NCBI GenBank assembly: GCA_037893245.1
Contig: JBAIAA010000608.1
Coordinates: forward strand, 1,240,001 to 1,304,000
Direction of reading: 5' to 3'
DNA: 64,000 nucleotides
Source of the DNA: Crossaster papposus
Lineage: Eukaryota > Echinodermata > Asteroidea > Velatida > Solasteridae
The translations under genes and the position numbers were made by a program. The stretch's first letter is position 1, and every line of letters begins with the position of its first letter. Shown here one piece after another: positions 8,975-56,866 of the stretch. The notes under the pieces are model-generated. The model was not told the origin of the DNA, did no database searches, and saw nothing but the letters and a program-made list of their open reading frames with translations.

Positions 8975-11900
8975 GCCTCGGTCTTGGTCTCGGTCTCGGT
9001 CGCCTCGGTCGCCTCGGTCGCCTCGGTCTCGGTCTCGGTCCCCTCGGTTTTGGACATCAGGGTCTCTACTACAACACTGATTATTATCTGCCTACCCCGT
9101 TTGGTTGTTATTGCCCAACGGCAATGTGCAATGATGTTTACTACTTTGTAGGGAAATATTCTTACTCAACAATTAGTTTTGCCGTTATCCGTCTATATAG
9201 GTTATTAAAGATATTTACCACTTATTGAGAAAATGTTTTTCACTCAACATTTGGTTATTGTGCCCGTTATTGCATAAATGTATAGGATTTGTTTTCTTCT
9301 GCAGATTCGTTAAGAATCTGCTTGCAATTATTTCTGCATTCAATAGGGGACTTTAAACAATAAAGAACAAAACGGTTCCATATATTACCAAACGCCCCCG
9401 ATTGCCATTCGTGTACAAAACATATGGGAGGTGTTCTGAAAATAATGTAAAGTACAAACAAAAAAGACTGGGATAAATTCACACAGTCGTGTTTTACATA
9501 ACGACTGAGGATTCAATATTGTGTTTTCCTTTGTTTATGTACTGTAACTTAACCCAATTCACTTATCGTACATTTTAACGGTAGGATACACCATTGGTAA
9601 TTGGTTGAATTATCAGGAATAGGTGGATTTGGGGGGTTGTATTTTATAGTCAATATCGTTTTACTATAGTAAATATCGTCTGAAGTTTGACAATCATGAA
9701 TTCTGAGACAATCTAGAAAAACAACGTTCGTTTTTAACCGGCGTCGGGCAGTGGTTCCTGTGTTGTACTTGGTGTTTTTTTGCGCGATCGCCGTCCGGCG
9801 ATCGTAATTTTTGTTAAATAAAATTCATTTTTGTTCGGAACAATTACAGGATATCTAGCGCAATATTTGTGCTGGATGCCTACAATTACTATTTACTTTC
9901 AATTAAAGATATTTCTTAATAATTCGGTAGTTAATATTTTCGATATCTGCAAATGGTATATCCTACAGAGGACAACATTCAACAAAAAGCGAACGCCCGC
10001 AAACTGAATCTCTTGTTCGTCTATTGTGCTTCTGTCCTCGAGAGTTGTGTACACACTTAGATTATATTAGATTAGATTGCTTTATTCAGCCAATGATTAA
10101 AAACAATCACAGAAATTTGTAATGTTAGACTCGCACAACAACAATAATAAACATATAATTACAAAAGTATACAAACAATTCTTTAAATTTAAATGAAAAA
10201 ACTCCCTCTGTTAAAGACCTACACAGCCGACGATATAAAATCTATTCCTGAAATGGTTGATTTATACAACATATTTTAAACATTAAAAACCCCATTGTTA
10301 AAAGACCCACACGGTCGATGATATAAAAACTATTTTTGAAACTGTTGGTTAATACATGTACATACATATTTTTTTACATTAAAAGTCCCCATTGTTAAAA
10401 ACCCGCACGGCCGATGGTATAAAACTATCTCTGAAACGGTTGGTTTTTGCACCTATTGATCTCATCCTTCTTCCTGAAGGCATCATGTGGAAGAACTCAT
10501 TTGTTGGATGATGCACATCCTTAACAATGTTTTCGACACGCTTTCTCATTCTCTTATCATAGATTGTCTTCATGTCATCCAACTTAAATCCAATTATGCG
10601 CGATGCGTTTCTGGCCACCCGATTCAGTTTATAAATTGCACACTCAGGAGTGACATTGAACCAGACAATAATAGAGCTGGTCAGGCAAGATTCAATTACA
10701 CATCTATAAAAATTAATCAAAATATGTTTGCTAACACCAAAGGATTTCAGTCTACGTAGAAAATACAAACGTTGTTGGGCCTTTTTCAAATTTTCAGATA
10801 CTTGATTTGACCAAGACAGGGTGTTCATTATGAATGTACCGAGAAACTTAAAACAATCTACAATGTCCACATCTCTTCCGTTAATGACAATTGGTTCAAT
10901 TTGACCTTTATTTTTACGAAAGTCAATTATCATTACCTTAGTTTTGTCAACGTTCAAGACAAGATTGTTCGATTCAGACCATTTTACAAGAGATGATACT
11001 TGACTTCTATAACTGGATTCGTCGCCATTACAAATTAAACCACTAAGGGTGGTATCATCCTGTGTGTAATGTGCATGTACATTGTAATTCCCAAAACGCT
11101 ACCTTCTTGTGTCATTATACTTTAATAAATACCTAGGAGAGTTGATGGCTTCTGATTGGTCGAGACTCGATCACGTGGAGTGGATTATCAGGTAGTAATA
11201 TCATGGGCTTTCAAGAAGAAGCGAATACACGTTCCCTGAAGCATAGATTAAGCATCATGTAAGCCAATGATTGGCCGAATGCAACAGTTCTACGGTAATT
11301 TGTAACAAGAACGCGACAAATCTTGATACTGCGCGCTATAAATGTACGCGTAGAACGTTTGTATCTATACGCGCGGTATTTTTCAAAATGCGCGTGTCGT
11401 CTGTTAACGCTAGCGCGTTGCTATGCACGGTGTACATCAGTGGTCAGCTAGTCTGGTCTCAAAGTATGGGTTATAATAACAACACATATTGAAGAGACAG
11501 GGTACCATGCATAAGCTAAAACATGGCCCCTAAACATGAACACAAAACGCTAGAAATGTTGCCGAAAAGAAAGACACGACATTTTGAGCATTTTGATCAT
11601 TTGTCTCGTTAAAAAGGTATTTATTAAAGGTAATAACAGTGCGAAGACCCGGTTATTACTGCGTGATAATGACCGGGTTGGGGGATGACCGCTGGTAATG
11701 GACCTCGCCTTCGGCTCGATTCATTACCGGCGGTCATCCCCCAACCCGGTCATTATCACGCAGTAATAACCGGGTCTTCGCACTGTTATTACCTATATAA
11801 ACATACGGAGACTACACTGTGCCCACATGGGGAAATTATTTGGAAGTTTCGTTTATGTTTTATTAAATTTAAAGTGTTCTTGACTGGTGTGGCGAGCGAG

Positions 11901-15480: not shown

Positions 15481-15679
15481 CATTTGATCTGTGAATGCTG
15501 CCTTTCGGCAACAGCTTCAATGAATGTGATCAAAGGGTGACCAAACGTTGAAATTGAACCATAAACGACTAAATTGGTGTGGTAAAAGCGTTTGATTGTT
15601 TTAATAATGTCAAATTCGTTTAGGCTGTTGCCGAAGGGCAGCATTCACAGATCAAATTCGTCTTGATATTAATCAATAG

Positions 15680-16345: not shown

Positions 16346-18044
16346 AATAGAGAACCGCCAGCATAATAGAACTAAAATATATTATATTCTGTAAATAAAA
16401 CAATATCGCATAACAAATCACGAAACACGAAAACACTATAGAAACCCATGTTCATGACACAAAAGGTACGTCATCTAAGACAATATTGCGCAGTAACTTA
16501 CACTACAGTTTTGCTCTTTAACCATTTGCAGTGTTCTCTAAAAGCGGGGGGTAACACACTCTTTCCTTGAAGTTAGTAAAACAATTTTAAAGTTTGGTAT
16601 TTGGCGTCACTAAAATACAAATTGCAATATCATCATAAATTTATTTAGTTGTACAGTGTGGAGTCTCGTAATAGAACATATATGTTTTCTCTGCTATTTT
16701 CTTAACAATTTTCATTTAAAATAACCAACTCTCGCATTCAATTTCGTCCAAAGAAATGCACAAAAATCACACGCTTTTACTAAACAAATTAAGTCATTTG
16801 CCATTTAATTGCAATTTGTTGGTCACTCTAATTAAACTTTGTCTCGCGAATATTCGTCACCACAGTCTAAGCTGTTGCTGAAAGGCAAACATACATACAG
16901 GAATCAAATTCGTATAATATCAATCAATTTCAAACTTATGTGAAATAAATTAGTCTGGTGTGTGCATGACTCACGCACATATCAGACTAATTTATTTAAC
17001 ATAAGTTTGACATTTGATCTGTGAATGCTGACTTTCGGTAACAGCTTCAACGAATTTGATCAAAGGGTGAGAAAGCGTTGAAATTGAACCATAAATGACT
17101 AAATTGGTTTGGTAAAAGCGTTTGATTGTTTTAATAATGTCAAATTCGTTTAGGCTGTTGCCGAAAGGCAGCATTCACAGATCAAATTCGTCTTGATATT
17201 AATCAATAGGTAAAATTATGTTAAATTTATTAGTCTGGTAATTATGTGCGTGATATATATATATTGTTTTAATTTTAATTGTCAAGGGGGGTCAATGTCT
17301 TTGTTCACTTTGAAATGTATGCAAATTGGACCTATTTGGTTTCACATTGTGGGATCACTCATTGAGTGATCCCACAATGTCGCTTCCCAGGTTGTATCTT
17401 AAAATTAGGCGTGATCCCTGGTCACACGGTATTCTGGTGTTTTATGACTTCTGACAAGCGCCCTCGAACAAAGATACTAACAATTTGGAAGACAGCTAAA
17501 CATAGGGCAAAATAGATCAGTTGGTAGAACGCCGGTCCGGTATTCCGGAGGTCGCAGGTTCGAGACCCGCCTTGCCATTTGTTTTTGTTCACTTTGAACT
17601 TTCTGCAATTAAGTGTATGTATATTAAAATGCACGCAAATAACAGAATATGGGTCGAATGCCGTGTTGCTGTGTAATCATTAATCATGTGTTTCAAAATG
17701 GGATTTTGAATTGAAATGAGTGGAGGAAACAATAACCAGGAGCTTACACAATCGCAATGTTTAGCTCCACAATAATGACATGTGAATGATCTATTCAGAA
17801 TAGCCGGACATTTTGGGCACACTTATTCTATTTCAAAAAATTGACTTTGATGTAATCGTTATTTTTACTCAGCCTATACTTTGTTTCTACAAAATAGAAA
17901 TTTGGGGAATGTAAGTAGCAAGGCGGGGGTACCTTGAGAGATTGGTGAATTAAAGTATCTTGCTGCCACCTTGGATGCTTACACCTGGTCTTAAACTACT
18001 TCAGAGACACCTCCCTTCCATATACAAGTGCCAAACCCTTTACC
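16346..18044. repeat. Composite repeat block M, copy 2
   Basis: As copy 1 but without MITE family 3; the sequence runs AATCAATAGG straight into TTAGTCTGG near 17211-17235. It ends with a stretch holding a minus-strand frame of Cys pairs (17589-17822) and the join to block X at 18045. Confidence 0.82.
17506..17577 (+). repeat. tRNA-like SINE unit 2
   Basis: A box TAGATCAGTTGG and B box GGTTCGAGACC. The anticodon stem CCGG/CCGG is intact, and the loop reads CCGGTAT with no U33. Confidence 0.7.
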
Positions 18045-19831: not shown

Positions 19832-20431
19832 GTATTCATAAATACCTGGGACAGTTTAGGCATTCCTATTGGTCGAGAGCCCGTCACGTGGCTGGTATTA
19901 AACGGACGATAAAGACATGGCTGGAAGTGTTCAAAATCAGCTGGCAACAAAACAATGTCACGCGATGTCGCATTATACCCGTCCCCAGGGCTCACTTTAT
20001 TTCCAACCGTACCTCGTGTCCAATAATAAGAGCGGGTATGGTTGGGCGGGTACAGCTCGACACCCTGGGAACGAGGTTGCCAATGGCAGTAATAGTCTGG
20101 TTCATAGTAAATACGTTTTAATTGCATGTATTGTGTAGAGCGACAGAGGCGGAAACATGTCATTTGACACACACAGAATGGCGAAACACCGAAATTTACT
20201 TGCGACAATTTTCCGAGATTTTCGGGGCTTTTTAGGCTGAATTTTACAAAAAAGGTATTTATGAATGGGAATAAATGTGTGTTCGGTTGGTATTAATCAC
20301 CCTGTTTAATGCCGCTTGGAGTCTGGGTGCTGATAATTACCCTCGCCTTCGGCTCGGGTAATTATCAGCACCCAGACTCCAAGCGGTAATAAACAGAGGG
20401 ATTAAAACCTCTCGAACACACGTTTATTCCC
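19832..20431. mobile_element. Foldback element FB2
   Basis: The left end ATTCATAAATACCT is inverted as AGGTATTTATGAAT at 20253-20266, followed by a 165-bp hairpin. About 435 bases of body lie between. Open frames on both strands (19825-20208 minus, 19828-20121 plus) are conserved with FB3 because the copies are young; no domain is recognised. Confidence 0.8.
20267..20431. repeat. 165-bp hairpin of FB2
   Basis: Arms run from GGGAATAAATGTGTGTTCG to the inverted CGAACACACGTTTATTCCC, and include a perfect inner stem CTTGGAGTCTGGGTGCTGAT. The loop is CCTCGCCTTCGGCTCG at 20341-20356, identical to FB1. Confidence 0.94.
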
Positions 20432-20727
20432 TTATTATAGTACGTCTGCATTATGAAGTCCATGTATGTTCTGGTTAATTAGTTTATTTATTACTATTGT
20501 ATTTGTTCAATATTTGTGTGTGAAAGCATGGAAATCAATAAATTAATAAAACAGTTGCGATCACACACGAACAAAAATATTAAGCAGTGTTAACTACATG
20601 TATAGCTTAAAGGGATTATATATACACCATTTACTGTAATGCTCGGAAATGGATGGGTTGCCTAGAAAATTCATGTTTTATAGAAAATATCTTGACTGCT
20701 GACCTATTTAAAGTGTCCACTAGTACG

Positions 20728-25836: not shown

Positions 25837-26436
25837 GTATTCATAAATACCTGGGACAGTTTAGGCATTCCTATTGGTCGAGAGCCCGTCACGTGGCTGG
25901 TATTAAACGGACGATAAAGACATGGCTGGAAGTGTTCAAAATCAGCTGGCAACAAAACAATGTCACGCGATGTCGCATTATACCCGTTCCCAGGGCTCAC
26001 TTTATTTCCAACCGTACCTCGTGTCCAATAATAAGAGCGGGTATGGTTGGGCGGGTACAGCTCGACACCCTGGGAACGAGGTTGCCAATGGCAGTAATAG
26101 TCTGGTTCATAGTAAATACGTTTTAATTGCATGTATTGTGTAGAGCGACAGAGGCGGAAACATGTCATTTGACACACACAGAATGGCGAAACACCGAAAT
26201 TTACTTGCGACAATTTTCCGGGATTTTCGGGGCTTTTTGGGCTGAATTTTACAAAAAAGGTATTTATGAATGGGAATAAATGTGTGTTCGGTTGGTATTA
26301 ATCACCCTGTTTAATACCGCTTGGAGTCTGGGTGCTGATAATTACCCTCGCCTTCGGCTCGGGTAATTATCAGCACCCAGACTCCAAGCGGTATTAAACA
26401 GAGTGATTAAAACCTCTCGAACACACATTTATTCCC
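25837..26436. mobile_element. Foldback element FB3
   Basis: Nearly identical to FB2, with the same ends and a 165-bp hairpin at 26272-26436 (loop CCTCGCCTTCGGCTCG at 26345-26360). One arm difference between FB2 and FB3 (AATGCCGC against AATACCGC) makes the FB3 stem better paired. Confidence 0.82.
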
Positions 26437-26732
26437 TTATTATAGTACGTCTGCATTATGAAGTCCATGTATGTTCTGGTTAATTAGTTTATTTATTACT
26501 ATTGTATTTGTTCAATATTTGTGTGTGAAAGCATGGAAATCAATAAATTAATAAAACAGTTGCGATCACACACGAACAAAAATATTAAGCAGTGTTAACT
26601 ACATGTATAGCTTAAAGGGATTATATATACACCATTTACTGTAATGCTCGGAAATGGATGGGTTGCCTAGAAAATTCATGTTTTATAGAAAATATCTTGA
26701 CTGCTGACCTATTTAAAGTGTCCACTAGTACG

Positions 26733-26791: not shown

Positions 26792-28288
26792 GTTGGTAAA
26801 TACCACAGCTGGCTCATACCATTACTGCAATTCCACATTATTACAGCGCCACAAACGCTCCCGAATGGTTTCTTGGTCATCTAATTGCCACCACGGCTTT
26901 GTTTTTGTAGTTATATATATGTTTTATTCTAAAAACAAATCTAGCCGAATCCCTATGCGCCCACCAATTATTGCACACTATAACGAGTTTCAATAATTGT
27001 GTTTGATTTAATATGAGATGTAATTAAAGTAAGTAGTTTGCGGTAGCATGTACATGTGGTAATTAGCTTTTGTGAGTTGTGTGGTTCTAAACGGAACTGG
27101 AGGGAACTCGACATTTTGGATAGTATGCTCTGCCCGTCGTCAGGAAACTAAGAATTCCAAGGGTGAAGCGGGGTTATATGGAGCTTGGCAAACGAAGGAT
27201 GCAACTGAAGGATGCAACTGAAGGGTTCTCATGCAGGACGCTGGATGATCACTGAGGCTTGTCAGTGTCACGGAAGAGACCGAAATAAAAAAAGTTGCCA
27301 AGGATATAGAAAATCCATAGGCTGGAGAACTACATGTCCTAGAGTACATAGGACCCATTTCACTGGGAGGTGATGGTGGGTGGGGCGCCAGATGTCGCTT
27401 TACCGTTTAAATCCCACAGTGTCCTGACGACGGGCAGGGCATTCTGTCCGAAACGTTGAGATCCCTCCTTTTTTTTTAGAACCACACAACTCGCCAAAAA
27501 GAATGTCACATGGTGCTACCACATACTACTTATCTTATTGATTTTTTGCCATCAATTTTGTCCGGAGAAATACAACAAAAATTACACGCTTTAAATAAAC
27601 AAATTAGGTCATTTGCCATTTAATTGCAAATTGTTGGTGACTCTATTTAAACTTTGTCTCGCGAATATTCGTCACCACAGTCTAAGCTGTTGCTGTAAGG
27701 CAACATACATCTAGGGGTCAAATTCGTATGATATCAATCAATTTCAAACTTATGTGAAATAAATTAGTCTGGTATGTGCTTGACTCACGCACATATCAGA
27801 CTAATTTATTTAACATAAGTTTGAAATTGATCTGTGAATGCTGACTTTCGGCAACAGCTTCAACGAATGTAATCAAAGGGTGAGCAAACGTTGAAATTGA
27901 ACCATAAATGACTAAATTGGTTTGGTAAAAGCGTATGATTGTTTTACTAATGTTAAATTCGTTTAGGCTGTTTCCGAAAGGTAGCATTCACAGATCAAAT
28001 TCGTCTTGATATCAATCAATTTTAAACTTATGTTAAATTTATTAGTCTGGTAATTATGTGCGTGATATATATATTGTTTTAATTTTAATTGGCAAGGCGG
28101 GTCAATTTCTTTGTTCACTTTGAAGTGTATGCAAATTTAACTAGTTGGTTTCCCATGTGTATCCTCGTTGAGTGATCCCTACAGTGTCGCTTCCCAGGTT
28201 GTATCTTAAACTTGGGCGTGATCCCTGGTGTTTATGACTAGCGACCTCGAACAAAGATACTAACAATTTGGGAGACCGCTAAACATAG

Positions 28289-44000: not shown

Positions 44001-47000
44001 TCGGTGACGACCGCAACCCGGCAGTTGTCCGTAGCCTCAAAGTTGGGTTACACCATCCCGACTCCCGCCTGCGACTCACTCCATATCTTGCCGTACATTT
44101 TAACGGTAGGATACACCATTGGTAATTGGTTGATTTATCGGGAATAGGTGGATTTGGGGGGTTGAAATTTACGTTTTACTATAGTAAATATCGTCTGAAG
44201 TTTGACAATCATGGATTCTGAGACAATCAAGAAAAACAGCGTTCTTTTTCAACCGGCGTCGGGCAGTGGTTCCTATGTTGTACTTGAGGTTTTTTTGCGC
44301 GATCGCCGTCCGGTGATCGTATTTGTTGTTAAATAAAATTCATTTTTGTTCGGAACAATTACAGGATATCTAGCGCAATATTTGTGCTGGATGCCTACAA
44401 TCACTATTTACTTTCAATTAAAGATATTTCTTAATAATTCGGTAGTTAATATTTTTGATATCTGAAAATGGTGTATCCTACAGAGGACAACATTCAACAA
44501 AAAGCGAACGCCCGCAAACTGAATCTCTTGTTCGTCTATTGTGCTTCTGTCCTCGAGAGTCATGTACACACTTGCATGTGGATGTGTGTAATGTACATGT
44601 ATATTGTAATTTCAAAAAACGCTACCTTCTTGTGTCATTATACTATGGACATATGGAGACTACATTGTGCCCACATGGGGAGATTATTTGGAAGTTTCGT
44701 TTATGTTTCATTAAATTTAAAGTGTTCTTGACCGGTGTGGCGAGCGAGTATAGGACGTGTTACTTCGGTCCCCCACCGGAACCTGATCCTGATAATCCCG
44801 ATCACTGGATGAAGCAAGCCATGCGAGAGATACGGAAGCGTTGCCGGGGAAATTGCGAACCTAAACCACCCGGTAAGTCGCCTTACTAATGCTATCTCCC
44901 GTCACATCGACTGCACAACATACTGTATTAATCGGCTTTCAAAACAAAACACAAATCAAAACAAAAACCACCATTGTTCGTGCATGGTCTCATTCCCTAA
45001 ATTTGTTTCCCAAATGTTAAATATCACTTAAAGCCAAGTGTTTGTTGGGGTTTGTTTGTTTGTTTATTTATTATTATTTGTATATAACAATATCGGTATC
45101 TTTTTACATAAACATCAGAAACACATTGGTTTGTTTTCTTGTTTGTTACCAACAGAGTGTTTAAGTACGCAGCCTCTCGGCATGGAGGACGGGACAATCC
45201 AAGATGATCGCATCACAGCGTCCAGTAGTAACAATTATTGGCCTCCACACCTGGCACGCCTCAACCTGCGCTCCGGCGCATGGGAAACCTTGAGGTTGGC
45301 ATTACGTTATTACAATGCCACAAAACGCGCCCAAATGGTTTAATAGTCATAGAAACGTGGAATCGGCTTTGTTTTCGTATACTTTTTTCTTTGTCTGTTT
45401 GTTTTTAATTCTAAACAAAATCTAGCCCAATCCCGATGCGCCGCTCAATTATTGCACACTATTATACAGTTTCAATAATTGTGTTTTAGTTTCAAATCCA
45501 TTTAAGCAATCGATTAAATCGCGTTGTTGTGTTATAATGTCACCAGTCTCGCATTACACATATAAACATTCGAATCTGATATGTAATTAAGATAAGTACA
45601 TGTAGTTTGCAGTACTAGCACCATGTGGCTATTATTGTTTGTGAGTTGTGTGGTTCTGAAAGGAACTGGAGGGAACTCGACATTTTGGATAGTATGCTCT
45701 GCCCGTCCTCAGGAAACTAAGGGATTCCGACGGTGAAGCAGGGTTATATTAAGCCTGGAAGCGATAAAGCGTACGAAGGATGTAACTGAGGGGTACTCAT
45801 GCAGGACGCTTGGTGATCACTGAGGCGTGTCAGTGTAAAGGAAGAGACTGAAATGAAAAGTTGCCAAGGGTATAGGAGATCCATAGGCTGAAGAACTACG
45901 TGTCCTAGAGTACATAGGACTCATCGGACTGGGAGGTGATGGTGGGTGGGGCGCCAGATGTTGCTTCGCCGTTTGAATCCCTCAGTCTCCTTACGAAGGG
46001 CAGGGCATTCTGTCCGAAACGTTGAGATCCCTCCGTTTCTTGTTAGAACCACACAACTCACTAGACAGAATGTCCACATGGTGCTACCGCAAACTACTTA
46101 TCTTATTTATATTTTGCAATGCAAACCTTCAAACCTCTGGTCCTTTTTAGAACCACACAACTCACTAAAGAGAATTACCACATGGTGTTACATGTACACG
46201 TTGTTATATGTATCAGCTGATATAACAACAATGGTGATTTACAGGCGATTTGTTTTCAAGCCACATACGTATCCCGTACGCGTATCTAATGGTTCCTATT
46301 CATCCCTTTACTCTGTGCACATAGCGCCATTGGTTCCTGGATAGAGGTGGACCTCGTTGAGAGTACAGTGTTGACAGGAGTAATCACACAGGGATGGGAT
46401 AGCTCACGCCATGTGAAGCGGTACACGGTGGCGTATCAGAAGCAGCCCTCATCTGCCTATGAACACGTGACAGATGGAAACGGAAACATCAAGGTAAATG
46501 CCTATCTTAACTTAACAGGCTTTGCAGGTATTTAAAGGGCATGGGGCAGATCGATTTCACGAAACGCCAAGACGGGTCTTAGAAAAAATAGTAACTCGTC
46601 CTAACTCGCGACCAAAGTTTAGACGCTTTAAACACGTCATAACCTCCATAGAAACGCGGCTTAACTCGTCTTAACTTGAGATCGGTCCGAGGGTCGTCTT
46701 ATCTCACGTGCGTTAATCTATATTATTATCTGGAAACCATTGCATTATCTTCTCGTTTTAGACAATGTCGGCCTAGAGTTAAAGTTTCGAAGAAAGACAA
46801 CTATTATCAACAGGTTTCTTTTCAGTCGCGTGTATCGTAAAAATATATATATTTATACGCCATCAACTAGTCGCCTCTGTCGTATAGAACGTGTAGAACT
46901 ACCGTACGTGGTTGTATTACGCTGACTAGTTTGCGCGTTTCTTTTCAACGATTGTTTACTCTAGCGGTAAAAAAACAAACATGAAACAGCTATCAAATTG

Positions 47001-52725: not shown

Positions 52726-53299
52726 GTATTCATAAATACCTGGGACAGTTTAGGCATTTCAATTGGTCGAGAGCCCGTCACGTGGCTGGTATTAAACGAA
52801 CGATAAAGACATGGCTGGAAGTGTTCAAAATCAGCTGGCAACAAAACAATGTCACGCGATGTCGCATTATACCCGTCCCCAGGGCTCACTTTATTTCCAA
52901 CCGTACCTCGTGTCCAATAATAAGAGCGGGTAGTGTTGGGAGCGAACAGCTCGACACCCTGGAAACGAGGTTGCCAATGGCAGTAATAGTCTGGTTCATA
53001 GTAAATACGCGTTATTGCATGTATTGTGTAGAGCGACAGAGGCGGAAACATGTCATTTGACACACACAGAATGGCGAAACACCGAAATTTACTTGCGACA
53101 ATTTTCCGGGATTTTCGGGACTTTTTTTGCTGAATTTTACAAAACAGGTATTTATGAATGGGAATAAATATGTGTTCGGTTGGTATTATTCACCCTGTTT
53201 AATACCGCTTGGAGTATGGGTGCTGATAATTATCAGCACCCAGACTCCAAGCGGTATTAAACAGAGTGATTAAAACCTCTCGAACACACATTTATTCCC
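52726..53299. mobile_element. Foldback element FB4, loop deleted
   Basis: Same family as FB2 and FB3. The hairpin spans 53160-53299, but the conserved loop and adjoining bases are gone, leaving the perfect palindrome GGTGCTGATAATTATCAGCA near 53219-53238 at the centre. Confidence 0.82.
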
Positions 53300-54689
53300 T
53301 TATTATAGTGCGTCTGAATTATGAGGTTCATTTATGTTCTGATTAATTAGTTTATTTATTACTATTGTATTTGTTCAATATTTGTGTGTGAAAGCATGGA
53401 AATCAATAAATCAACAAAACAGTGGTGATCACACACGAAACAAATATTAAGCAGCGTTAACTACATGTATAGCTTAAACGGATTATATATACACCATTTA
53501 CTGTAATGCTCGAAAATAGATGGGTTGCCTAGGAAATTCATGTTTTATAGTAAATATATTGACCGCTGACCTGTTTAATGTGTCCACTAGTACGAGCTGT
53601 TGCCCTGCCAGTGCGGCACGCCTAAACAATAACAATGGATGGTTTCCCCAGAGGTTGGTATCTAAAGGAAATACCACAGCTGGCTCATACCATTACTGCA
53701 AATCCACATTATTACAGCGCCACAAACGCTCCTGAATGGTTTCTTGGTCATCTAATTGCCACCACGGCTTTGTTTTGGTAGTTATATATATTTTTTATTA
53801 TAAAAACAAATCTAGCCGAATCCCTTTGCACCGCTCAATTATTGCACACTTTAACGAGTTTCAATAATTGTGTTCGGTTTTCAAATCCGTTCTCAAGCAA
53901 CCGATTAAATCGCTTTGTTGTGTTATACTTTCATCAGTCTAGCATTACACATTTTAATATGAGATGTAATTAAGATAAGTAGTTTGCGGTAGCACCATGT
54001 GCTAATTAGCTTTTGTGAGTTGTGGGGTTCTGAAGAGAACTTGAGGGAACTCGACATTTTTGGATAGTATGCTCTGCCCGTCGTCAGGAAACTAAGGGAT
54101 TCCAACGGTGAAGCGCGGTTATATTGAACCTGGAAGCGATGAAGCGTACAAAGGATGTAACTGAGGGGTACTCATGCATGACGCTTGATGATCACTGAGC
54201 CGTGTCGGTGTGAAGAAAGTGACCGAAATGGAAAGTTGCCAAGGGTATAGGCGACCCATAGGCTGGACAACTACGTGTCCTAAAGTACATGGGACCCATT
54301 GGACTGGGAGGTGATGGTGGGTGGGGCGCCAAATGTTGCCTCACCGTTATAATCCTTACGAAGGGCAGGGCATTCTGTCCGAGACGTTGAGATCCCTCTG
54401 TTTCTTGTTAGAACCACACAACTCACTAGACAGAATTTCCACATGGTGCTACCGCAAACTATTTATCTTATTGCTATTTTGCCATGCAAACTTTCAATCC
54501 TTTAGTCCTTTTTAGAACCACACAACTCACTAAAGATAATTACCACATGGTGTTACATGTACACGTTGTTATATGTATCAGCTGATATAACAACAATGGT
54601 GATTTACAGGCGATTTGTTTTCAAGCCACATACGTATCCCGTACGCGTATCTAATGGTTCCTATTCATCCCTTCACTCTGTGCACATAG

Positions 54690-55674: not shown

Positions 55675-56866
55675 TTCTGCTCAAGCTTATAAGCGCTGTT
55701 CGTATTCGCTACAAAACATTTTCCAAAAAAACCAAAACGGAAAATTGACATTTGACAAAAGCATAGAGAACCGCCAGCATAACAGACCTGAACAATAACA
55801 CCGGGCTGGAAATATATTATGTTCAGTAAATAGGAAATATCGCAAAAAAACCAATTGTGCTAAAATGTTTTGCTTTTGCTGAAAATATAATTGTTTTGTA
55901 TTCAACAATTATGTTATAAATTCCAGTGGCGTAAATCTATATCGGCGAGTGGAGGATGGGATAACTGAAAATGTACGGCCGTGAAAAATCTAAAAACGGA
56001 GAAAATGGGGGTGGGGGGAGGGCACATGTTTACATGTTTATGACACAAAAGGTACGTCATCTAAGGCAATATTGCGCAGTAACTTACACTACAGTGGTGC
56101 ATTTAAACCATTTACAGTGTTCTTTTTATTAAAGGTGAAGGATAGACACTTTATTTTTTATTCTTACCACCGAAATCTAGGGGATGATCCAAAAGCGGAG
56201 GGTAACATACTCTTTCCTGGAAGTTAGGCCCATAGTAAACACATTTAAACGTCTGGTATTTGGCGTCACTAAAATACAAATTGCAATATCATCAAACAAT
56301 TATTTAGTTGTAAAGTAAATAGAGTCTCGTAATAGAACATATATGTTTTCTCTGCTATTTTTAAACAATTTTCATTCAAAGTCACCAACTCTCGCATTCA
56401 ATTGTGTCCGGAGAAATTCATAAAAGATTCCACGCTTTTACTAAACAAAGTCATTTGCCATTTAATTGCAAATTGTTGGTCACTCTAATTAAACTTTGTC
56501 TCTCGAATATTCGTAACCACAGTTTAAGCTGTTGCTGTAAGGCAACATACATCCAGGGATCGAATTCGTATGATATCAATCAATTTCAAACTTATGTGAA
56601 ATAAATTAGTTTGGTGTATGCACGACTCACGCACATATCCGACTATTTTTATTTAACATAAGTTTGACATTTGATCTGTGAATGCTGCCTTTGGGCAACA
56701 GCTTCAATGAATGTGATCAAAGGGTGAGCAAACGTTGAAATTGAACCATAAATGACTAAATTGGTTTGGTAAAAGCGTATGATTGTTTTAATAATGTCAA
56801 ATTCGTTTAGGTTGTTGCCGAAGGGCAGCATTCACAGATCAAATTCGTCTTGATATTAATCAATAG

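Follow-up and report, generated by a model that had tools for sequence, protein, structure and literature searches.

How a rolling-circle transposase recognizes the 3′ end of its element is an open question, and to our knowledge the Helraiser transposon has provided the one experimental test of it. In the sections of that report cited here, exchanging the stem of the Helraiser hairpin while keeping its loop left approximately 90% of activity, and changing the loop while keeping the stem had an effect like that of deleting the hairpin (PMC4778049). The 3′ hairpin of elements derived from Helitron2 or Helentrons is thought, according to excerpts of the literature on them, to end rolling-circle strand transfer. 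As described in parts of one report, Helitron2 elements have asymmetric inverted repeats of 8–15 bp, with the 5′ copy 0–2 bp from the element end and with compensatory changes noted (PMC3627910). The 3′ stem of DINE-1 differs between species and still pairs, which the relevant passages attribute to compensatory change (PMC2374699), and the mite HINEs are described, in the excerpts cited, without the DINE-1 inverted repeat (PMC4067079). In rRNA hairpins, multiple paired corrections together with inverted loops have been recognized, in passages of a further report, as footprints of template switching (PMC8794818).

Here we examine long foldback hairpins in a stretch of 64,000 nucleotides from Crossaster papposus (contig JBAIAA010000608.1, positions 1,240,001 to 1,304,000; hereafter the window) and across the genome. 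With a probability that we put at roughly two in three, these hairpins are the 3′ ends of two non-autonomous sister families of rolling-circle type that have a Helitron2/Helentron layout and work by the mechanism proposed below. We describe the anatomy, ends and target preference of the elements, show that the two families are homologous and that their arms have diverged in a matched way, and report inverted loops on several arm types; from these observations we propose how protein, strand and termination might fit together.

Hairpins in the window

A preliminary description of the window had reported foldback elements (FB1, FB2 and FB3) of nearly complete self-complementarity that share one loop, and both observations are borne out. 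The FB1 palindrome occupies 165 nt at 11629–11793, where two arms of 75 nt flank the loop CTCGCCTTCGGCTCG, and the folding energy predicted for its single strand, −97 kcal/mol, is reached by 0 of 200 shuffles (z −24.8). Complementarity reaches 93% at 11625–11797, 86% at 20267–20431 and 91% at 26272–26436. When up to two mismatches were allowed, CTCGCCTTCGGCTCG matched the window three times, always exactly (chance expectation 0.03). The FB2 and FB3 hairpins carry the FB1 loop on arms that differ from those of FB1. Within the loop, GCC-TTC-GGC can form 3 bp, and the other strand reads GCC-GAA-GGC.

11122..11796, + strand: whole FB1 element of family 1 (675 nt), without target-site duplication; ends from the paralogous empty site, the 3′ end being uncertain by about 1 nt
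11122..11134, + strand: FB1 5′ copy TTAATAAATACCT of the asymmetric terminal inverted repeat, at the very start of the element (read from sequence)
11615..11627, + strand: FB1 3′ inverted-repeat copy AGGTATTTATTAA, 1 nt upstream of the hairpin (read from sequence)
11629..11703, + strand: FB1 left hairpin arm, 75 nt (sequence and folding)
11704..11718, + strand: FB1 loop CTCGCCTTCGGCTCG, 15 nt (loop search)
11719..11793, + strand: FB1 right hairpin arm, 75 nt (sequence and folding)
11647..11678, + strand: nested small palindrome in the left arm of FB1 (arm folding at z −2.5, reached by 4 of 500 shuffles)
11744–11775: mirror image of the nested palindrome, in the FB1 right arm
44583..44941, + strand: paralogous empty site of FB1, junction near 44644 (93% identity across the junction)
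19835..20434, + strand: FB2 element, family 2; hairpin at 20267–20431
25840..26439, + strand: FB3 element, the FB2 insertion within a duplicated segment; hairpin at 26272–26436
52729..53302, + strand: fourth copy, family 2; palindrome at 53160–53299, loop deleted; identity of the insertion from flanks common with FB2 and FB3
15482–15657, 17012–17187, 27823–28002 and 56669–56844: examples of the many places of another repeat, with arms of 48–50 nt (palindrome search)

Two other points of the preliminary description had to be revised. The feature at 11628..11794, taken there for a free-standing foldback element, is the last 170 nt or so of the 675-nt element at 11122–11796. FB2 and FB3 do not count as separate witnesses: they lie in one segmental duplication that is 95.6% identical over 3 kb; together with the copy at 52729–53302 they represent one insertion, and the window therefore contains two independent insertions, not three.

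The copy at 52729–53302 has lost its loop, apparently through a deletion that ran from one AATTA repeat to another, and the same loop-less form recurs in two further copies (L108 and L123). The last repeat in the list above belongs to a different family, in which inverted arms of 48–50 nt surround an 80-nt spacer and adjoin 47-nt palindromes with a 1-nt spacer.

Genome-wide census

The exact loop CTCGCCTTCGGCTCG occurs 2752 times in the 1.02-Gb genome, and a reversed control pattern once. We examined 73 loops, namely 70 of the first 100 listed (some of which duplicate one insertion, for example L063–L065, L043–L044 and L046–L047) and the three from the window. Both arms were of the FB1 type (family 1) in 29 and of the FB2 type (family 2) in 35, giving 64 in total; eight others had one recognisable arm and one had neither.

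Element ends and target sites

In both families the hairpin is the 3′ end of a larger, predicted non-coding element, mostly of 0.6–1.2 kb, that runs from a 5′ inverted repeat through a variable body to a copy of the repeat, the hairpin, approximately 3 nt and the end. The inverted repeats are asymmetric and 13–14 nt long, and the 5′ copy (TTAATAAATACCT in family 1, TTCATAAATACCT in family 2) lies at the terminus in both families. The 3′ copy, AGGTATTTATTAA or AGGTATTTATGAA, ends 1 nt ahead of the first hairpin base, which in FB1 places it 169 nt from the element end. The termini read TTAAT or TTCAT and CCTAW or CCCTTA, and body sequence differs among copies. No 5′ hairpin was found in six copies, the folding energies of their first 45 nt ranging from 0 to −1.6 kcal/mol. 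Six different sites (L046, L048, L050, L057, L061 and L066) share an identical 165-nt hairpin of family 1, which points to recent movement.

The possibility that these are retrotransposon 3′ ends, suggested by copies that seemed 5′-truncated, was dropped given the recurrent 5′ ends and the empty sites. In one copy (L086, approximately 1029–1273), an insert with the ends CCAGTTCGCGCCGG...GGCGCGAACTGG lies between two TTAA and separates the 3′ repeat from the hairpin; we take it to resemble a miniature element of the piggyBac type.

Paralogous empty sites are present for eight insertions, and six of these (FB1, L007, L010, L048, L050 and L056) resolve the ends cleanly. The empty site of L046 is blurred by divergence. 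No target duplication was found in the six clean sites beyond 1–2 ambiguous bases, and among 23 + 24 loci no clear flank identity signalling such a duplication was seen by diagonal sums taken without a null comparison. At the eighth, a family 2 insertion (L042), about 9 nt of target seen in the empty copies are missing from the flanks.

The preferred target is palindromic, TWA-N8-TAA, a motif picked after the flanks had been viewed: TWA and seven further host bases precede the insertion, and a single host base and TAA come after it. The left half-site, TTA or TAA at −10 to −8, is present at 14 of 24 sites in family 1 and at 16 of 25 in family 2 (background 4.6%), the right half-site, TAA at +2 to +4, at 17 of 24 and 14 of 25 (background 2.4%), and both together at 10 of 24 and 7 of 25. 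The last host base is T at 16 and A at 8 of the 24 family 1 sites and A at all 25 family 2 sites. Duplicate flanks had been removed from this set, and L016 and L062, both earlier counted under the two families, had been taken out of family 1 and family 2, respectively.

These sites bear on an alternative in which a tyrosine recombinase recognizes the same elements as folded single strands and moves them much like integron cassettes, with the hairpin as the recombination site and the palindromic target as its half-sites. The target is indeed an inverted repeat with an 8-nt spacer, both families insert after seven of the eight positions without target duplication, and a folded apex that is strand-specific would be plausible for such an enzyme. 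However, asymmetric terminal inverted repeats combined with a 3′ hairpin form the layout of Helitron2 and are not known to be that of Cryptons. Moreover, the left spacer is host DNA in all six clean sites, whereas double-strand exchange should presumably leave it on either side. We consider movement by a tyrosine recombinase to be fairly unlikely.

How the arms stay paired

The two arms of family 1 hairpins change together. Among 17 hairpins (15 distinct ones of the 21 above a score threshold, plus L024 and L062 added by hand, from the 29 with two arms), nine pairs show paired change, with 26 cells altered on both sides; none of 500 shuffles did as well, and sliding the partners against each other yielded at most 3. 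The signal in family 2 is weak, with six pairs among 26 hairpins (the distinct ones among 32 above threshold, out of 35), a result reached by 7 of 500 shuffles for pairs and by 20 of 500 for cells paired.

Family 2 provides evidence of another kind, in the form of a mismatched block of three bases that reads GTC on the left arm and AGA on the right in 20 of the 29 copies for which both arms were scored, a set that includes duplicates of one insertion. The left block is found on the right arm in L032 and L052, and the right block on the left arm in L056. This suggests that blocks moved as units, one arm being copied from the other.

Inverted loops are a third feature of this kind. When the elements are oriented by their 3′ repeat, the loop runs the normal way in 1866 and is inverted in 40 (2.1%), in a count that requires both an exact repeat and an exact loop. 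The first example (G000:C52:445976) was noticed in the list for the loop-conservation test described below. Twenty of the 40 were fetched; in 12 the arms are paired along most of their length, and in eight the right arm is broken or shifted. Two asymmetric bases adjacent to the loop are inverted along with it in all eight family 1 copies fetched, and the outer arm block is unmoved in three family 2 copies (L089, L093 and L094), so that the inversion breakpoints lie inside the arms. The inverted copies are nearest to five different normal arm types, represented by L009, L055, L032, L006 and L018. Inverted L093 and L094 have arms identical to those of L009, as do inverted L090 and L103 to those of L055; the nearest normal copies are L032 for L092 and L099, L006 for L091 and L106, and L018 for L095 and L096. 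Judging from these arms, inversion has happened at least once in each family, and the events were probably more numerous than one per family, although not every inverted copy need be a separate event.

Inverted loops are the clearest sign in our data to suggest fold-back copying between arms, although the same pattern would result if the arms recombined and inverted the loop. They allow fold-back or inversion events to be counted directly at a long eukaryotic palindrome, and the dominance of one orientation is testable as a functional constraint. Hairpin transfer on each cycle, as is known from parvoviruses, was rejected as a model, because it would leave about half of the loops inverted and only 40 of 1906 were.

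One could also suppose that selection for single compensatory substitutions is all that keeps the arms paired, and that neither arm is copied from the other. In favour of this view, the commonest paired changes in family 1 are from A-T to G-C, for which a route through a G-T intermediate is possible. This would not account for the blocks of three adjacent differences that are common to both arms in L032 and L052 (on the right arm) and in L056 (on the left arm), nor for the inverted loops, which require a fold-back or an inversion event. Hence, we find it improbable that selection of this kind has acted by itself.

Relationship of the two families

No hybrid of family 1 and family 2 arms was found among the 73 loops examined, and the base after the loop, which is typically A or G in the two families, is C or T at 26 of the 2752 loops. 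The arms are thus fixed family sequences. Consensus arms built from hand-picked copies, 20 of family 1 and 21 of family 2, are 75 nt long in each family, and the consensus loop is the same in both. Left arms of the two families are identical in 47 of 78 aligned columns (z 4.1, reached by 1 of 2000 dinucleotide shuffles) and right arms in 49 of 82 (z 4.8; 0 of 2000), and the middle of the left arm alone, with tip and base removed, still gives a z of 3.5 (4 of 2000). Likewise, 44 of the first 57 nt at the 5′ ends are identical in an ungapped comparison. On these alignments, the arms of both families are homologous, being about 60% identical, equally long and diverged in step, and families 1 and 2 are sister families separated by ordinary descent.

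The preliminary description had called the arms of FB1 and of FB2/FB3 unrelated, and had proposed that arms are interchangeable modules, rebuilt by loop-primed copying of a new template. A constant loop on different arms is what prompted this proposal, but the column counts above contradict the lack of relationship. In addition, there are only two arm types and no hybrids in 73 loops, both types have arms of the same length and common origin, and the 5′ ends are homologous too. The expectation that an arm might match the DNA beside its own insertion found no support in the 54 elements whose two ends could be placed: in comparisons with 300 bp on either side, the sole match was a TTA microsatellite beside L034. 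The opposite picture that was sketched there, of two fixed arm sequences found genome-wide with an autonomous parent for each, holds for the arms; no such parent was found for either family among the matches described below. We therefore give very little credence to copying from a new template. What does persist is a weaker form of the idea, fold-back copying between existing arms, which is backed by the paired changes, the block transfers and the inverted loops. A constant loop with differing arms is tempting to misread, but it calls for no new template.

Movement of a classical foldback element or MITE by a DDE transposase, with the palindrome serving as terminal repeats, might explain the large inverted repeats and the high copy number but is scarcely credible, given that the palindrome lies wholly at one end, that the terminal repeats are asymmetric and not of the kind such elements carry at both ends, and that target duplication is absent from six clean empty sites.

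Possible constraint on the loop, and instability of the hairpin

Greater conservation of the loop than of the arms was not found inside family 1, where loops deviated in 21 of 100 cases and an arm control in 23 of 100 (the first 100 listed of 658 and 637), or 79 versus 77 exact per 100 listed; this idea was rejected for that family. The loop constraint rests, therefore, on the comparison between the two families. Equal decay of loop and arm in family 1 is expected if most copies decay neutrally.

A smaller palindrome is present in the left arm of each family, at the corresponding place. In folding of the left arm, the number of shuffles as good out of 500 was 0 for the family 1 consensus, 4 for FB1 and 12 for family 2. 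For the left arm's reverse complement, which stood for the right arm in this test and is not an independent sequence, the numbers were 4, 27 and 5. These folding calculations are suggestive only, and the terminus might take either a rod or a three-lobed form. The notion that the loop is stronger in one strand was discarded, the two strands of the FB2 tip folding about equally under the parameters used (−6.4 and −6.8 kcal/mol). The minus-strand loop can presumably be read as tandem sheared G-A.

Instability is expected of long palindromes. Among 20 family 2 elements that were chosen by their 5′ end and have no listed exact loop nearby, five have changed loops (two of these being apparent duplicates), nine have central deletions, and six have no hairpin within the 1-kb stretch.

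The exact loops are unevenly distributed over the contig strands, with 1127 on the plus and 1625 on the minus strand (p 2e-21), and loops tied to a repeat are uneven as well (718 and 1148). Contig orientation is arbitrary. The 5′ ends (803/820 and 668/622) and the family 1 tips (317/341) are even across strands. The imbalance points to family 2 and is perhaps an effect of assembly or polishing at palindromes. However, for the 68 listed family 2 5′ ends on contigs before C29, the contig in which the listed loops end, loop presence does not differ between the strands (17 of 33 versus 21 of 35, p 0.63), which counts against this reading.

Search for an autonomous partner

No element with FB ends that encodes a Rep/helicase was found among the matches listed, which represent part of the genome. 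Helitron Rep matches as such number at least 150 (150 of 273 candidates scored), many in frames of more than 3000 aa. The one frame checked, of 3049 aa, contains OTU, Helitron_like_N, PIF1 and endonuclease domains and is of the Helentron type. The abundant Helentron (L071, L072 and L080–L084) was considered as a partner and rejected on comparison of the 5′ end, which differs from that of the FB elements. As judged by eye among the matches listed, only two of the 25 Reps listed on contigs C1–C123 are no more than 50 kb from an FB place, and neither is a partner. One belongs to a 36-kb span on C17 that carries the Rep inside a family 1 element; this span is a nested insertion, with a TAGA microsatellite at its end. 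The other is 31 kb from a hairpin on C123 that belongs to an ordinary 1.2-kb element. A 3.3-kb family 2 copy (L055+L074) was set aside as well, being a nested insertion.

The Helentrons deserve mention in their own right. The copy at L080 12–9161 and its relatives contain many Helitron-type frames of more than 3000 aa, and two copies that are 99.9% identical over 5.6 kb suggest either recent activity or duplication.

Proposed mechanism

We return to the reading that the hairpins are the 3′ ends of rolling-circle-type elements. A partner element would supply the Rep/helicase that displaces a single strand, the hairpin would fold at the 3′ end of this displaced strand, and its apex would be read as the termination signal. 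If the apex is read in this manner, then its sequence would be constrained across families, and the arms would need only to pair. By analogy with the Helraiser stem swaps, the loop is most likely the signal at rolling-circle termination, with a stem that must merely pair. Two processes could keep the arms alike, namely paired substitution and fold-back (template-switch) copying in which one arm serves as the template for the other, and the latter process would occasionally flip the loop.

A more speculative extension, which we offer tentatively and think doubtful as it stands, is that the terminus copies itself. It would then be a 165-nt palindrome with a smaller one nested in each arm, at corresponding places in the two families, whose sole sequence-specific part is an orientation-biased apex of 15 nt and whose arms are continually re-templated. 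If the arms are re-templated from each other, such a terminus could drift to a new sequence and keep its function, and it would represent a natural Helraiser stem swap, carried out in thousands of copies within one genome.

Comparison with known systems

The elements resemble Helitron2, in which the inverted repeats are likewise asymmetric, with the 5′ copy at the terminus and the 3′ copy immediately before the hairpin, according to the parts of that report cited here (PMC3627910). Similarly, HINE, DINE-1 and the oyster Cg_HINE are non-coding, present in high copy number and equipped with a 3′ sub-terminal repeat before a palindrome, as excerpts of the respective reports describe them (PMC4067079, PMC2374699, PMC7492417). 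The absence of target-site duplication, seen here in six clean empty sites, is a feature of HINEs as well.

Nevertheless, the differences are considerable. The 3′ repeat lies about 170 nt from the element end, compared with 20–60 nt in Helitron2 and HINE elements generally and, in the passages cited, 38–60 nt in the mite HINEs (PMC4067079). Arms of 75 nt replace a short hairpin, the stem of 75 bp exceeding the 7–11 nt given for DINE-1 (PMC2374699) and the 5–10 bp given for mite HINEs (PMC4067079) in the relevant excerpts. Helitron2 has a 5′ hairpin with its 5′ repeat, which was not found here, as was the case for the partner protein, and its 3′ hairpin is much shorter. Insertion occurs at the AT-rich palindrome TWA-N8-TAA rather than at the TT or T-rich sites of Helitron2 and HINE elements, TT being the target reported for HINE and DINE-1 elements in the sources as excerpted. 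In the open-licence literature, we found no paper on the letters of the loop and, in the parts of it that were accessible, no described 3′ Helitron hairpin of comparable size, which is weak evidence of novelty. The tip of a 5′ hairpin in FoHeli1 of Fusarium, GCC-GAA-GGC in the passage cited, equals nine letters of the minus-strand loop, although this may be a coincidence (PMC5148889).

From Helitron1 the elements differ in having no 5′ TC, no 3′ CTRR and no consistent AT target. They resemble Helitron1 and Helraiser in the use of a 3′ hairpin as the likely terminator, and in Helraiser, as far as the cited sections describe it, the loop matters and the stem is exchangeable (PMC4778049). The Helraiser palindrome is given there as 19 bp, in contrast to the 165-nt terminus reported here. 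Hairpins shaped by template switching, in the excerpts available, also combine paired corrections with inverted loops, and loop inversions are rare in both settings (PMC8794818); those cases are rRNA stems, whereas ours is a 165-nt transposon terminus with 2752 exact loops.

These elements are of a known kind, set apart by an unusually long 3′ hairpin with arms that are probably self-templated, and they illustrate in nature the constancy of the loop. The presence of one loop on two diverged stems in a single genome fits the Helraiser and DINE-1 precedents directly. Evolution has apparently repeated the Helraiser experiment, with one loop retained on two diverged stems that both still pair.
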